Positions 10,351 through 38,347 of a stretch of DNA of 64,000 nucleotides are shown piece by piece. Made by a program: the position numbers and the translations under genes. Numbering within the stretch: position 1 is the stretch's first letter; each line of letters opens with the position of its first letter. The notes beneath the pieces were generated by a model. That model worked only from the letters and a program-made list of their open reading frames with translations. It searched no databases and had not been told where the DNA came from. The DNA is from Halotalea alkalilenta. Its GTDB lineage: Bacteria > Pseudomonadota > Gammaproteobacteria > Pseudomonadales > Halomonadaceae. The stretch is from contig NZ_CP015243.1 of the NCBI RefSeq assembly GCF_001648175.1, positions 1,736,001 through 1,800,000 of the forward strand, in the 5' to 3' direction.

Positions 10351-10434
10351 GCCCCTCGATGCGCTTCGCTTACTCGGGATGCTCGGATAGCCGGCGAGGA
10401 GCGAGGACGCTTCAATATCCGTTCGTGGTGAGCC

Positions 10435-10676
10435 TCCTGTGCCATCGCGATGGCACTGCGCATGGACCTTGAACCCGAGTAGCATGGCTGTGTTGCCGCA
10501 AGCAGCGTGGCCGCATGTCTTTTGGTGCCGGGTGCCCGGTGGTGAGAATGGCTCTGGTCGTGGGCTGCTGCGCATTATGGTGAGCCTGGCTTCCCGTTGG
10601 AAAGATTTGTCTTCCCAGAACACGACCGGGCTTGCGGTAACCCCTTCTCCATCGACCCGTTCCCAGGAGCTATGAG
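10435..10676 (+). ncRNA. Predicted bridge RNA region of IS110 copy 1
   Basis: The 242-base non-coding leader between the left end and the transposase start is where IS110-group elements encode their bridge (seek) RNA. It begins with an 18-base perfect palindrome (GTGCCATCGCGATGGCAC, 10439-10456). GTGGTGAG (10539-10546) is identical to the left target half. GCCTGGCTT (10584-10592) can pair, with two G-U wobbles, to GAGCCGGGC across the insertion point. TGGAAAG (10598-10604) is identical to the right end of the element. CAGGAG (10664-10669) is complementary to CTCCTG at the left end. The exact RNA ends cannot be read from sequence. Confidence 0.5.
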
Positions 10677-12005
10677 ATGGCCCACTTACCGGTATTGGAT
10701 CCATTGGCAGCCTTCGTGGATGTCGGCAGCGAGCAGATGTATGTGTCGATTGCCGGAGGGGAGCCGAAGGTATTCGGCACGTTCACGGCACAGCTGCATG
10801 AGCTACGCGACTGGCTGTTGTCGCAGAAGGTGAAGTCGGTGGCCATGGAGGCCACGGGGATCTACTGGCTGCCCCTGTACAGCGTGCTGGAAGCCGCGAA
10901 ACTACAGGTGCTGATGGTCAACGGTAAGCACACCCGCAATCTGCCGGGTCGCAAGACGGATATGAAGGATTGCCAGTGGGGAGCGACGTTGCACGCGCAC
11001 GGACTCTTGCGGGCAGGCTTCGTGCCCCCAGCCGAGATCCGGCGCTTGCAGGATTACCTGCGACTGCGCCAGGACCACATCACGCTGGCCGCAGGGCATG
11101 TGCAGCATCTGCAGAAGGCCTTGGAGCGGATGAACATCAAATTGCACGATGTCATCAGCAACCTGGTGGGCCGCAGCGGCATGGCGGTGATCCGGTCGAT
11201 GCTCGAGGGTGAACGCGATCCTGAGCGACTGCTGGCTTTGTGCGACGTGCAGATCCGCCAGCAGAAGGCCGAACGGATCAAAGCCTCTCTGCAAGGGACC
11301 TGGGCCGAGGAGCATCTGTTCGCGTTGCGCCAGGCGCTGGAAAGCTGGGAGCACTACCAGCGTTTGATCAGGGCTTGCGACCAACAGATCGAAGCGGTGC
11401 TCTGTTCGATCGACGTCGATCCTCCGACGTCGCCGCCGTCCAAGGCGCACAAGCGAGGCGGTGCCAATGCACCCCAGATCGATGACCTGCATCCGATGCT
11501 GGTGGCTCTGTGTGGAGGCAATGATCTCACCGTGCTTCCCGCCCATACGGACTACAGCGTCCTGCAACTCATAGGTGAAGTGGGAACCGACCTGACCCAG
11601 TGGCCGACCGAGAAACACTTCACCGCTTGGGCCGGGCTGGCCCCCGGGAGTCATCAGAGCGGTAAGCGCCAACGCTCGGCCAAGCGCAGGCGTAATCGTG
11701 CTGGGCGCCTGTTTTGCGTCATGGCCCGCAGCCTCGCTCGCAGCAAACACATTGCGCTGGGCGGTTTTTACCGTCGGATGGCGGGTCGCCGAGGTGGATT
11801 GATCGCCAATATCGCCCTGGCGCGCAAACTCGCGGCGCTGTTCTGGCGCGTCATGGTCAAAGGATTGGACTATGTCGAACACGGACTCCAGTACTACGAG
11901 GCACAGGCGCTGGAAACCAAACAACGTTCCATGCGTCGACTCGCCAAGCAGCTCGGGTTCTCCGTGACGCCTATCCAGACTGAAGCTCAAAATGCTTCTG
12001 CCTGA
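10677..12005 (+). CDS. IS110-family transposase (DEDD recombinase), copy 1
   Basis: A 442-residue transposase. The N-terminal RuvC-like DEDD domain shows the first Asp in AFVDVGS (residue 15), Glu in MEATG (about 58) and Asp residues in KTDMKD (about 95). The middle is helical. The C-terminal Tnp_IS110 domain has LIGEVGTDLTQW and AWAGLAPGSHQSGKR, which contains the catalytic serine region. The start ATG at 10677 has AGGAG 7 bases upstream, and this Shine-Dalgarno overlaps a candidate donor guide of the leader RNA. It differs from the second copy at one visible residue (Cys for Arg in VLCSID). The length is within the usual range of the family, so it appears intact. Confidence 0.95.
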   Translation: MAHLPVLDPLAAFVDVGSEQMYVSIAGGEPKVFGTFTAQLHELRDWLLSQKVKSVAMEATGIYWLPLYSVLEAAKLQVLMVNGKHTRNLPGRKTDMKDCQWGATLHAHGLLRAGFVPPAEIRRLQDYLRLRQDHITLAAGHVQHLQKALERMNIKLHDVISNLVGRSGMAVIRSMLEGERDPERLLALCDVQIRQQKAERIKASLQGTWAEEHLFALRQALESWEHYQRLIRACDQQIEAVLCSIDVDPPTSPPSKAHKRGGANAPQIDDLHPMLVALCGGNDLTVLPAHTDYSVLQLIGEVGTDLTQWPTEKHFTAWAGLAPGSHQSGKRQRSAKRRRNRAGRLFCVMARSLARSKHIALGGFYRRMAGRRGGLIANIALARKLAALFWRVMVKGLDYVEHGLQYYEAQALETKQRSMRRLAKQLGFSVTPIQTEAQNASA

Positions 12006-12091
12006 AAGTTGAGGAAGAACGATATGACGACCGCCCAATCTCCCCCTGATCATCCCCCTGTCGAGGAAAACTCGGAGGGGGTTCATGGAAA

Positions 12092-12158
12092 GCCGGGCCT
12101 TCGCCAACCGGGCCCATCACGCCAAAGGCCGTGGAGGCCCGGGTCGAACCACGGTCCG
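12092..12158 (+). repeat. Dispersed repeat module A, copy 2 (right flank of IS copy 1)
   Basis: Begins GCCGGGCCTTCGCC directly at the right IS junction and carries GGCCGTGGAGGCCCGGGTCG then AACCACGG. It is the right half of the element's target. It is more diverged from the other copies than copies 3 and 4 are from each other. Confidence 0.75.
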
Positions 12159-36370: not shown

Positions 36371-36443
36371 CGGCGACGCGGCCGTGGTTCGACTCGGGCT
36401 TCCACGGCGTCTCGCGAGCTGGCCGGGTCGGCGAAGGCCCGGC
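36371..36443 (-). repeat. Dispersed repeat module A, copy 3 (flank of IS copy 2)
   Basis: On the minus strand it begins GCCGGGCCTTCGCCGACCCGGCC at the IS junction and ends with the GCCGTGG/CCACGGC hairpin and a GCGTCGCCG tail. It is almost identical to the module at 38191-38263, supporting their origin as one tandem array split by the IS. Confidence 0.85.
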
Positions 36444-36530
36444 TTTCCATGAACCCCCTCCGAGTTCTCCTCGACAGGGGGATGATCAGGGGGGAGATTG
36501 GGCGGTCGTCATATCGTTCTTCCTCAACTT

Positions 36531-37859
36531 TCAGGCAGAAGCATTTTGAGCTTCAGTCTGGATAGGCGTCACGGAGAACCCGAGCTGCTTGGCGAGTCGA
36601 CGCATGGAACGTTGTTTGGTTTCCAGCGCCTGTGCCTCGTAGTACTGGAGTCCGTGTTCGACATAGTCCAATCCTTTGACCATGACGCGCCAGAACAGCG
36701 CCGCGAGTTTGCGCGCCAGGGCGATATTGGCGATCAATCCACCTCGGCGACCCGCCATCCGACGGTAAAAACCGCCCAGCGCAATGTGTTTGCTGCGAGC
36801 GAGGCTGCGGGCCATGACGCAAAACAGGCGCCCAGCACGATTACGCCTGCGCTTGGCCGAGCGTTGGCGCTTACCGCTCTGATGACTCCCGGGGGCCAGC
36901 CCGGCCCAAGCGGTGAAGTGTTTCTCGGTCGGCCACTGGGTCAGGTCGGTTCCCACTTCACCTATGAGTTGCAGGACGCTGTAGTCCGTATGGGCGGGAA
37001 GCACGGTGAGATCATTGCCTCCACACAGAGCCACCAGCATCGGATGCAGGTCATCGATCTGGGGTGCATTGGCACCGCCTCGCTTGTGCGCCTTGGACGG
37101 CGGCGACGTCGGAGGATCGACGTCGATCGAACGGAGCACCGCTTCGATCTGTTGGTCGCAAGCCCTGATCAAACGCTGGTAGTGCTCCCAGCTTTCCAGC
37201 GCCTGGCGCAACGCGAACAGATGCTCCTCGGCCCAGGTCCCTTGCAGAGAGGCTTTGATCCGTTCGGCCTTCTGCTGGCGGATCTGCACGTCGCACAAAG
37301 CCAGCAGTCGCTCAGGATCGCGTTCACCCTCGAGCATCGACCGGATCACCGCCATGCCGCTGCGGCCCACCAGGTTGCTGATGACATCGTGCAATTTGAT
37401 GTTCATCCGCTCCAAGGCCTTCTGCAGATGCTGCACATGCCCTGCGGCCAGCGTGATGTGGTCCTGACGCAATCGCAGGTAATCCTGCAAGCGCCGGATC
37501 TCGGCTGGGGGCACGAAGCCTGCCCGCAAGAGTCCGTGCGCGTGCAACGTCGCTCCCCACTGGCAATCCTTCATATCCGTCTTGCGACCCGGCAGATTGC
37601 GGGTGTGCTTACCGTTGACCATCAGCACCTGTAGCTTCGCGGCTTCCAGCACGCTGTACAGAGGCAGCCAGTAGATCCCCGTGGCCTCCATGGCCACCGA
37701 CTTCACCTTCTGCGACAACAGCCAGTCACGTAGCTCATGCAGCTGTGCCGTGAACGTGCCGAAGACCTTCGGCTCCCCCCCGGCAATCGACACATACATC
37801 TGCTCGCTGCCGACATCCACGAAGGCTGCCAATGGATCCAATACCGGTAAGTGGGCCAT
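36531..37859 (-). CDS. IS110-family transposase (DEDD recombinase), copy 2
   Basis: A 442-residue transposase, identical to copy 1 except Arg for Cys in VLRSID among visible residues. It carries the same N-terminal DEDD residues (FVDVGS, MEATG, KTDMKD) and the C-terminal GLAPGSHQSGKR serine region. The frame is intact and the Shine-Dalgarno AGGAG is conserved, so both copies appear able to make transposase. The near identity indicates recent duplication or gene conversion. Confidence 0.95.
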   Translation of the reverse strand: MAHLPVLDPLAAFVDVGSEQMYVSIAGGEPKVFGTFTAQLHELRDWLLSQKVKSVAMEATGIYWLPLYSVLEAAKLQVLMVNGKHTRNLPGRKTDMKDCQWGATLHAHGLLRAGFVPPAEIRRLQDYLRLRQDHITLAAGHVQHLQKALERMNIKLHDVISNLVGRSGMAVIRSMLEGERDPERLLALCDVQIRQQKAERIKASLQGTWAEEHLFALRQALESWEHYQRLIRACDQQIEAVLRSIDVDPPTSPPSKAHKRGGANAPQIDDLHPMLVALCGGNDLTVLPAHTDYSVLQLIGEVGTDLTQWPTEKHFTAWAGLAPGSHQSGKRQRSAKRRRNRAGRLFCVMARSLARSKHIALGGFYRRMAGRRGGLIANIALARKLAALFWRVMVKGLDYVEHGLQYYEAQALETKQRSMRRLAKQLGFSVTPIQTEAQNASA

Positions 37860-38101
37860 CTCATAGCTCCTGGGAACGGGTCGATGGAGAAAGGGTTACC
37901 GCAAGCCCGGTCGTGTTCTGGGAAGACAAATCTTTCCAACGGGAAGCCAGGCTCACCATAATGCGCAGCAGCCCACGACCAGAGCCATTCTCACCACCGG
38001 GCACCCGGCACCAAAAGACATGCGGCCACGCTGCTTGCGGCAACACAGCCATGCTACTCGGGTTCAAGGTCCATGCGCAGTGCCATCGCGATGGCACAGG
38101 A
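37860..38101 (-). ncRNA. Predicted bridge RNA region of IS110 copy 2
   Basis: The 242-base leader of the second copy. Read on the minus strand it conserves every candidate guide seen in copy 1 (GTGGTGAG, GCCTGGCTT, TGGAAAG, CAGGAG) and the 18-base palindrome next to the left end. It differs from copy 1 by one base in a C/T run. Both copies occupy the same target sequence, which fits identical guides. Confidence 0.5.
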
Positions 38102-38347
38102 GGCTCACCACGAACGGCAGAGGGCGGGCTCGCCCGTATCTCCCAGCCGATCGTTCCGAGTGGATCGAGTGACGTCGAAGGATCGAGCGGCGGCGACGCG
38201 GCCGTGGTTCGACTCGGGCTTCCACGGCGTCTCGCGAGCTGGCCGGGTCGGCGAAGGCCCGGCTCACCACGAACGGCAGAGGTGGGCTCGCCCGTATCTC
38301 CCAGCCGATCGTTCCGAGTGGATCGAGTGACGTCGAAGGATCGAGCA
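38102..38347 (-). repeat. Tandem repeat, period about 159 bp (modules B and A)
   Basis: Read on the minus strand the order is B, A, B, then the IS, then A. Module B (38261-38347 and 38102-38190) contains GGAACGATCGGCTGGGAGATACGGGCGAGCCC and ends CCGTTCGTGGTGAGCC. Module A (38191-38263) begins GCCGGGCC. The two B copies are nearly identical. The array therefore had at least two units before the IS entered at the B/A border. Confidence 0.85.

Follow-up and report, generated by a model that had tools for sequence, protein, structure and literature searches.

The leader of an IS110-family element of Halotalea alkalilenta very probably makes a bridge-type RNA that reads the DNA on only one side of each crossover point. 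This reading of the sequence rests on the computed element borders, on covariation of one guide with the target and of another with the donor, on the RNA structure, and on the absence of a detectable right-target guide. We propose that the RNA encoded at 10496-10637 would be used by the element's DEDD recombinase, that the 3' arm of its donor loop would pair with the element's right end in a circular intermediate, that exchange would take place at the common dinucleotide AG, and that the right half of the target would not be read by the RNA. The making and binding of the RNA, the circle, the role of pairing in driving recombination and the strand polarity are supposed by analogy with IS621 and ISEc21.

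Element, borders and copies

The element (Table 1) lies in the window, as we call the whole 64,000-nucleotide stretch of DNA that was analysed. Its gene product (i) matches the Pfam domains DEDD_Tnp_IS110 (PF01548) and Transposase_20 (PF02371), both above cut-off, (ii) scores 203 bits against the NCBIfam model NF033542, 'IS110 family RNA-guided transposase' (cut-off 140), (iii) matches the IS621 structure weakly (E 0.00028), and (iv) contains a stretch that fits, by inspection, the G..P....SG motif of the IS110 family. The two marks of that family, a DEDD RuvC-like domain with this motif and insertion at a specific site via a short common core, are thus both present. By their coordinates the non-coding ends measure 244 nt on the left, upstream of the gene, and 87 nt on the right, the longer upstream end being that of the IS110 group; an earlier note on this DNA had recognised the leader and given it 242 bases, but the 20 junctions put the start of the element at 10433, hence 244 nt.

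Taken together, the 20 copies in the host genome differ at 25 alignment positions. The left flank reads RTGGTGAG and then CCTCCTGTGCC in 19 of them, and the left neighbour of the twentieth, L020, is another copy, L016, a tandem of the kind expected from re-insertion at the older copy's intact left target. All 20 end in GTTCATGGAAAG, beyond which the sequence diverges. Counted together with the occupied ones, GTTCRTGGTGAG sites number 88 in the host genome, where the reversed pattern does not occur; 54 of the 57 sites retrieved are empty, and the bases that follow are CCGG (44), CGCC (5), GAGC (2) or one of three others. Junctions and empty sites together therefore place the left border between AG and CCTCC and the right border after AAAG, with AG as common core.

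A second copy is found in the window on the minus strand (36426-38115, RNA at 37899-38040). Copy L011 (G000:C1:2985492-2987164) sits at the site GTTCATGGTGAG, 6 bases upstream of the start codon (ATG) of a reading frame that starts MNITLVGAGNMGAGF and that we read as being of the NAD(P)-binding type. Pairs of copies with equal orientation and partly similar flanks, at a distance of 1810 or 1910 bases, occur at G000 593161-596644, 1495171-1498753 and 3593626-3597208, as if the element and a repeat unit had been duplicated. Target words also form arrays of 5-10 sites each, spaced ~100-230 bases apart, at G000:C1:894700-896700, 1664900-1665900 and 3142500-3144200, where 1 of 24 sites is occupied.

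Table 1. Features of the element and its RNA, in positions of the window
Feature	Position	Strand	Basis or remark
Complete IS110-family element	10433-12092	+	20 genome copies, 99-100% identical; ends set by 20 junctions
DEDD transposase/recombinase, 442 aa	10677-12005	+	Contains GLAPGSHQSG; Pfam, NCBIfam, IS621 structure comparison
Left target GTTCGTGGTGAG	10421-10432	+	Final AG is the core, also at the right end; 20 junctions and 54 empty sites
Left member of subterminal inverted repeat, CCTTGAAC	10467-10474	+	Pairs with GTTCATGG at 12081-12088, one mismatch
Predicted bridge-type RNA domain	10496-10637	+	Closing helix 10496-10503 / 10630-10637; covariation; model R1
Putative target-binding loop	10509-10553	+	Outer helix 10509-10513 / 10549-10553, inner helix 10523-10528 / 10534-10538
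Putative target guide GTGGTGAG	10539-10546	+	Covaries with the left flank
Helix enclosing the donor half	10554-10562 / 10621-10629	+	Covariation
Inner donor hairpin	10578-10585 / 10589-10596	+	Contains most of the earlier note's extra match and its right-target candidate
Putative donor guide TTGGAAAG, 3' arm of the donor loop	10597-10604	+	Final 7 nt equal the element's right end
Right end GTTCATGGAAAG (left donor and core AG)	12081-12092	+	Constant in 20 copies

Relatives and alignments

A protein search in which 8000 candidates were scored gave 5847 relatives, those among the 120 listed being 73-100% and mostly about 75% identical; phage and viral collections held few. One scan of genome contigs yielded 79 loci from Verrucomicrobia, Chlorobi, beta-, alpha- and gammaproteobacteria and others, of which 30, together with the window and L156, gave 32 leaders that were aligned with MAFFT without use of structure and re-aligned as A2. 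Kept out of the alignment were near-identical copies (L054-L057, L077, L082 and L083 of L053; L087 of L086; likewise L062, L069, L070, L113 and L131), truncated or frameshifted loci, and more distant relatives. Searches by class and phylum added matches from six more genomes, which were used solely in model searches and in the flank tests on distant relatives.

Three loci whose left end is missing, displaced or tandem (L059, L100, L156) were omitted from the flank tests. The main left-target test comprised 29 rows including the window, with left junctions taken from the MAFFT column alone; the position scan, the guide-by-guide means and the k = 5 scan of the right flank comprised 28 rows, without L111, with junctions set by hand in knowledge of the guide.

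Structure of the RNA

The earlier note had proposed an IS110 bridge-type RNA encoded in the leader, and both compensatory structure and the guide covariation described below support this. The structure was obtained with RNAalifold on A2 and completed by hand to 34 pairs, and was tested on the alignment from which it was derived: 92.1% of cells are paired, and double-changed cells number 114, against 33 in shuffled alignments, 0 of 500 shuffles being as high by any of five measures. The outer helix of the target loop covaries, as is seen at pair 10510-10552 (GC 13, AU 10 and GU 9 of 32). Both modules contain an inner hairpin with the pattern UGGUG..C / G..CCCG, and in both the guide begins straight after the hairpin's last G; for the donor module a search for a close outer helix gave solely the enclosing helix.

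Model R1 scores the window RNA at 139 bits, the window row having been part of its training alignment, and finds the RNA in 32 of 43 loci outside A2 (E <= 0.01). These are not 32 independent loci. They include a close member (L101), two sets of copies, each from a single genome (L160, L164 and L166; L159 and L163), and two loci with a common flank (L092 and L122); at L108 the matched gene lies upstream of the match. Across 58 genomes R1 found matches only in the host genome and in one genome of the same genus, and a search for extra guide RNAs in the host genome, with 150 of 1467 candidates scored, returned 20 matches that are the 20 copies. Rfam gave no match above gathering score in the window. 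Folded singly, the leader was not clearly more stable than its shuffles (z 0.42 and -0.67), and part of the guide is paired in the fold of minimum energy.

Target and donor guides

The seven bases ending at 10546 equal positions -7 to -1 of the left flank at 7/7 in 20 of the 29 rows and at 6/7 in 4, a match that 0 of 20,000 permutations equalled; swapped controls (LT against LDG, LD against LTG) were flat. The remaining five rows score 5/7 (L061, L097), 4/7 (L111) and 2/7 (L079, L080); with hand-set junctions the last two reach 7/7 and 6/7, and we judge that the aligner had misplaced their junctions. For the full segment GTGGTGAG at 10539-10546, which the earlier note had equated with the left target half and which is expected about 0.004 times by chance as an 8-mer in the leader, the mean is 6.93/8 in the 28 hand-set rows, against 3.82 when permuted (0/20,000). 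A scan of the leader from 10463 to 10676, made on the same rows and blind to the choices of the earlier note, put 10540-10543 at the top for the left flank (z 13.1), and 10599-10604 for the right end (z 6.4).

Covariation is also evident between close relatives. Among 19 element pairs whose leaders are otherwise at least 75% alike, 41 of 53 changed positions were co-changed in guide and flank (the pairs overlap), with 2/2 for L089/L126 (95% alike), 4/4 for L074/L126 and 2/2 for L063/L067; poorer are four comparisons with L061, co-changed at 3 of 5 positions, and L065/L067 (0/1). Three copies in the genome of the same genus are likewise preceded by TCRTGGTGAG.

Among the distant relatives, the 29 of 32 model-matched loci with enough upstream DNA gave a fit of guide to upstream flank of 6.21/7 against 5.19 (0/20,000), and a stricter set lacking copies, L101, L122 and L108 gave 6.35 against 5.24 (n = 23, 11 at 7/7). 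The test had first been run on 23 of the 32 matches, L096 and L115 being omitted without reason, and the repeats with 29 and 23 rows agree. The fit is at most 5/7, near chance, for L124, L099, L108 and the copies L160, L164 and L166.

The second match to bear out the earlier note is that of TGGAAAG (10598-10604) with the right end, or left donor, at 6.87/7 over 23 rows against 6.02 when permuted (0/20,000). The right end reads GTTCATGGNNAG in all 23 rows used, and guide and end agree exactly in 22 of 23 rows and in 45 of 46 variable-base cells. These counts were 21/23 and 43/46 before the right end of L086 was reassigned upon recognition of a nested element there. The two differ in L063 (one mismatch) and in L087, the second copy of L086 that had been dropped, and GTTCATGGNNAG was not seen after the gene fragment of L097.

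The right half of the target

The first 12 bases to the right of the 20 copies are of 13 kinds, one of them being a neighbouring copy, with all four bases occurring at +1; similarly, the right flanks of seven copies of the L053 element are of six kinds, TTCCAGG being common to L057 and L077. A search for a right-target guide gave none with k = 4 at offsets 0-5 on both strands, no segment with a mean of at least 3/5 with k = 5 at right-flank offsets 0-44 on both strands, and a best z of 3.6 to 4.0 with k = 2, 3 and 4 at offsets 0-4 on both strands in 22 relatives; the best z over all scans was 4.1. An implanted 2-nt guide of 85% fidelity was recovered at z >7 in 95% of simulations (5th percentile 7.4), against a best observed value of 3.6. 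Conserved pairing with the core only, and reading by the protein, do not show as covariation, and the scan is blind to both. A search for a right-donor guide as complement of the left end surfaced only the left end's own terminal hairpin (~10437-10443 / 10452-10458), close to the border, in which the sequence varies and the pairing is kept in relatives (z up to 9.4).

The foremost alternative to a one-sided RNA is a two-sided one as in IS621, whose right-side guides lie in the 5' arms of the loops and are short or degenerate. We consider it unlikely. Inspection reveals that the 5' arm of the target loop often has a pyrimidine-U able to pair with core AG, yet no right-target signal emerged with k = 2, 3 or 4 (best z 4.0). 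On the donor side, CTGCGCAT at 10568-10575, in the 5' arm of the loop, recurs as left-end bases 10456-10463, and this likeness is kept in relatives (5.59/8 against 4.18 in 29 rows, 0/50,000). It is, however, an identity and not a complement, 24-31 nt inside the border, which does not fit the scheme of IS621, and it may reflect shared ancestry, its z of 6.8 comparing with values up to 6.6 for other segment pairs.

Far less probable is the layout put forward in the earlier note, an IS621-like RNA with four guides (LTG 10539-10546, RTG 10584-10592, LDG 10598-10604, RDG 10664-10669) whose last guide would coincide with the ribosome-binding site of the transposase and link RNA use to translation. 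All five strings noted, including an additional left-target match, do occur at the positions given, and the four guides pair in the window copy. In the relatives without the window, however, the right-target string GCCTGGCTT matches GAGCCGGGC at 4.95/9 with G-U allowed, against 5.07 when permuted, and it overlaps both arms of the conserved inner donor hairpin. CAGGAG matches CTCCTG at 3.21/6, the permuted value also being 3.21; it tracks nothing in relatives and begins 26 nt past the closed RNA domain, and the proposed link to translation falls with it. The additional match, TGGTGAGCC at 10578-10586, gives 3.93/7 against 3.98, and that site is occupied by TTTGGTGA or TTTGGCGA in 26 of 29 rows regardless of target. 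Right flanks, moreover, differ among copies with nearly the same RNA. Two of the four guides thus hold, and for these two, though not for the others, the expectation that guides lie in loops and change with their target is borne out: both follow inner hairpins and are unpaired in the tested structure, and the segment at 10539-10546 differs among relatives along with the target, whereas the rejected strings lie in a stem or outside the structured RNA, and the hairpin at 10578-10596 is common to the relatives.

Finally, that the protein or the structure of REP sequences chooses the sites, the likeness of the guide being a by-product of shared descent, is scarcely credible: the tested targets are indeed repeated words in the window's genome and in 5 of 6 other genomes, but very similar leaders have different targets with matching guides, L011 lies just before a gene start at the same 12-mer with a right flank unlike the repeats, and pairing the left target with the donor guide, or the donor with the target guide, left no signal.

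Comparison with known systems

The one-sided RNA that we favour resembles the IS621 bridge RNA (PMC11208160, PMC11208158) in that an upstream non-coding end encodes an RNA with target and donor loops, and in its 3'-arm guides pairing with the core, REP targets, DEDD recombinase and two-base core. It differs in the core on the gene strand (AG here, CT in IS621), in that the varying guides are those of the 3' arm, in that no 5'-arm target guide was detected, and in the presence of an 8 bp subterminal inverted repeat; the recombinase comprises 442 aa, whereas the structure entry for IS621 has 328. Whereas IS621 carries a left and a right guide in each loop, one guide per loop was detected here. 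In IS621 the partner of RTG G77-G80 is target bases 11-8, and that of RDG C162-G165 is donor bases 11-8 (PMC11208158). Since each of these guides belongs to the 3' side of its loop (PMC11208160), it is with the 3' end that each pairs with the CT core, and this end would read AG. Both guides of the window element lie on the 3' side and read N6-AG-3'. They would accordingly correspond to RTG and RDG of IS621 with the gene on the opposite strand, and the simplest mapping would make the clade an IS621 viewed from its opposite strand, in which both the gene and the RNA follow the AG strand.

Compared with the seekRNAs (PMC11187229), the element shares with ISEc21 a non-coding region upstream of the transposase gene. 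In the upstream RNA of ISEc21 the bottom-strand match lies 5' of the top-strand match, an order that the downstream RNAs of the IS1111 group reverse; here only a bottom-strand match was found, in the 3' arm. With the IS1111-group seekRNAs (ISEc11, ISKpn4, ISPa11) it has in common the 3'-side bottom-strand match and a subterminal inverted repeat, but in that group the RNA comes from the downstream side of the gene and includes a top-strand match (PMC11187229), whereas here the RNA domain is upstream. The IS1111 repeat, of 7-17 bp and set some 7 and 3 bp in from the ends, is also the longer, against 8 bp here at ~34 and 4; the IS110 group has none, or one of 2-3 bp. The left member of our repeat starts at +29 to +37, where CC[N][TG]GA[AG]C is found in 28 of 28 left ends, and CCNTGAAC / GTTCATGG forms a perfect 8 bp repeat in the left ends of 15 of 28 relatives, with one mismatch in the window.

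To judge from these texts, the layout, one-sided and apparently strand-flipped, differs from those described. The clade would thereby separate the position of the RNA from the polarity of its guides, which are linked in the five elements tested for seekRNA (PMC11187229). The diverse bridge RNAs of ISPpu10, ISAar29, ISHne5 and three others (PMC11208160, Fig. 6d) are represented here by text and legends, and one of them may share the layout; within the literature in reach, to which most subscription papers do not belong, neither a one-sided or AG-core clade nor targeting of sibling ends is described, though the Fig. 6d RNAs could include one.

A free right half would mean a target shorter than that of IS621 and simpler to rewrite, with one contiguous guide per DNA, and the clade would then offer a useful test of which parts of a bridge RNA are essential. 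Natural redirection by guide changes has been described for ISMch6 (PMC11187229).

Sibling elements and repeat targets

In the Verrucomicrobia genome JAOSKK, the guide of L053-type elements (TGGAGAG) equals the right end of L064-type elements, and the guide of the latter (TGGGAAG) equals the right end of the former. The two sibling types are found inserted at each other's right ends in L055 and L077, and L055 (1-4311) contains an L064-type, an L053-type and an L064-type element in this order, each abutting the next. In L086 the right end of the host element reads TGGGTAG, and precisely there lies a nested element with guide TGGGTAG; a neighbour of L073, cut by the contig end, exhibits the same guide-to-end insertion. 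In each of the 32 aligned elements the 7-mers of target guide and donor guide differ.

The targets of other relatives include repeats that we label 'REP-like'. Enrichment is strong for TCAYCCTGAG, which with its reverse numbers 116 and 6 in the genome of L068, 153 and 1 in that of L072, and 721 and 4 in that of L085, and TCATTGCGAG and its reverse 128 and 2 in that of L066 and 22 and 3 in that of L059, whose own left flank is missing. In the L060 genome CTGTAGGAG is not enriched (24 against 74 reversed), and there the REP reading is unproven.

It is tempting to speculate, with rather more doubt than confidence, that a large IS110 clade spanning several phyla uses such one-sided, strand-flipped RNAs, in which ~6 nt and AG would fix one half of the target and leave the other free, and the guide would be rewritten to match either a host REP or the right end GTTCATGGNNAG of a sibling. 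The two NN bases of that end might then act as a code for self and non-self, by which siblings insert into each other and not into themselves, a speculative reading of the sibling guides, and GTTCRTGGTGAG may itself descend from, or mimic, a sibling end. This natural set of similar RNAs with different sites, and of siblings targeting one another's ends, would constitute a record of guide rewriting and of parasitism of element on element.

Two short stretches were also seen. At L021 (G000:C1:4268653-4268696), a stretch resembling a left end stands by itself, with a perfect CCTTGAACCGG / CCGGTTCAAGG repeat followed by AAAG; neither a copy of the transposase gene nor an RNA match was found at this locus, which looks like a miniature relic. 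In L082, at about 1152-1244, a 93-base piece between two elements contains CCATGAACC and ends in GGTTCATGGAGAG, like a miniature non-autonomous relative.
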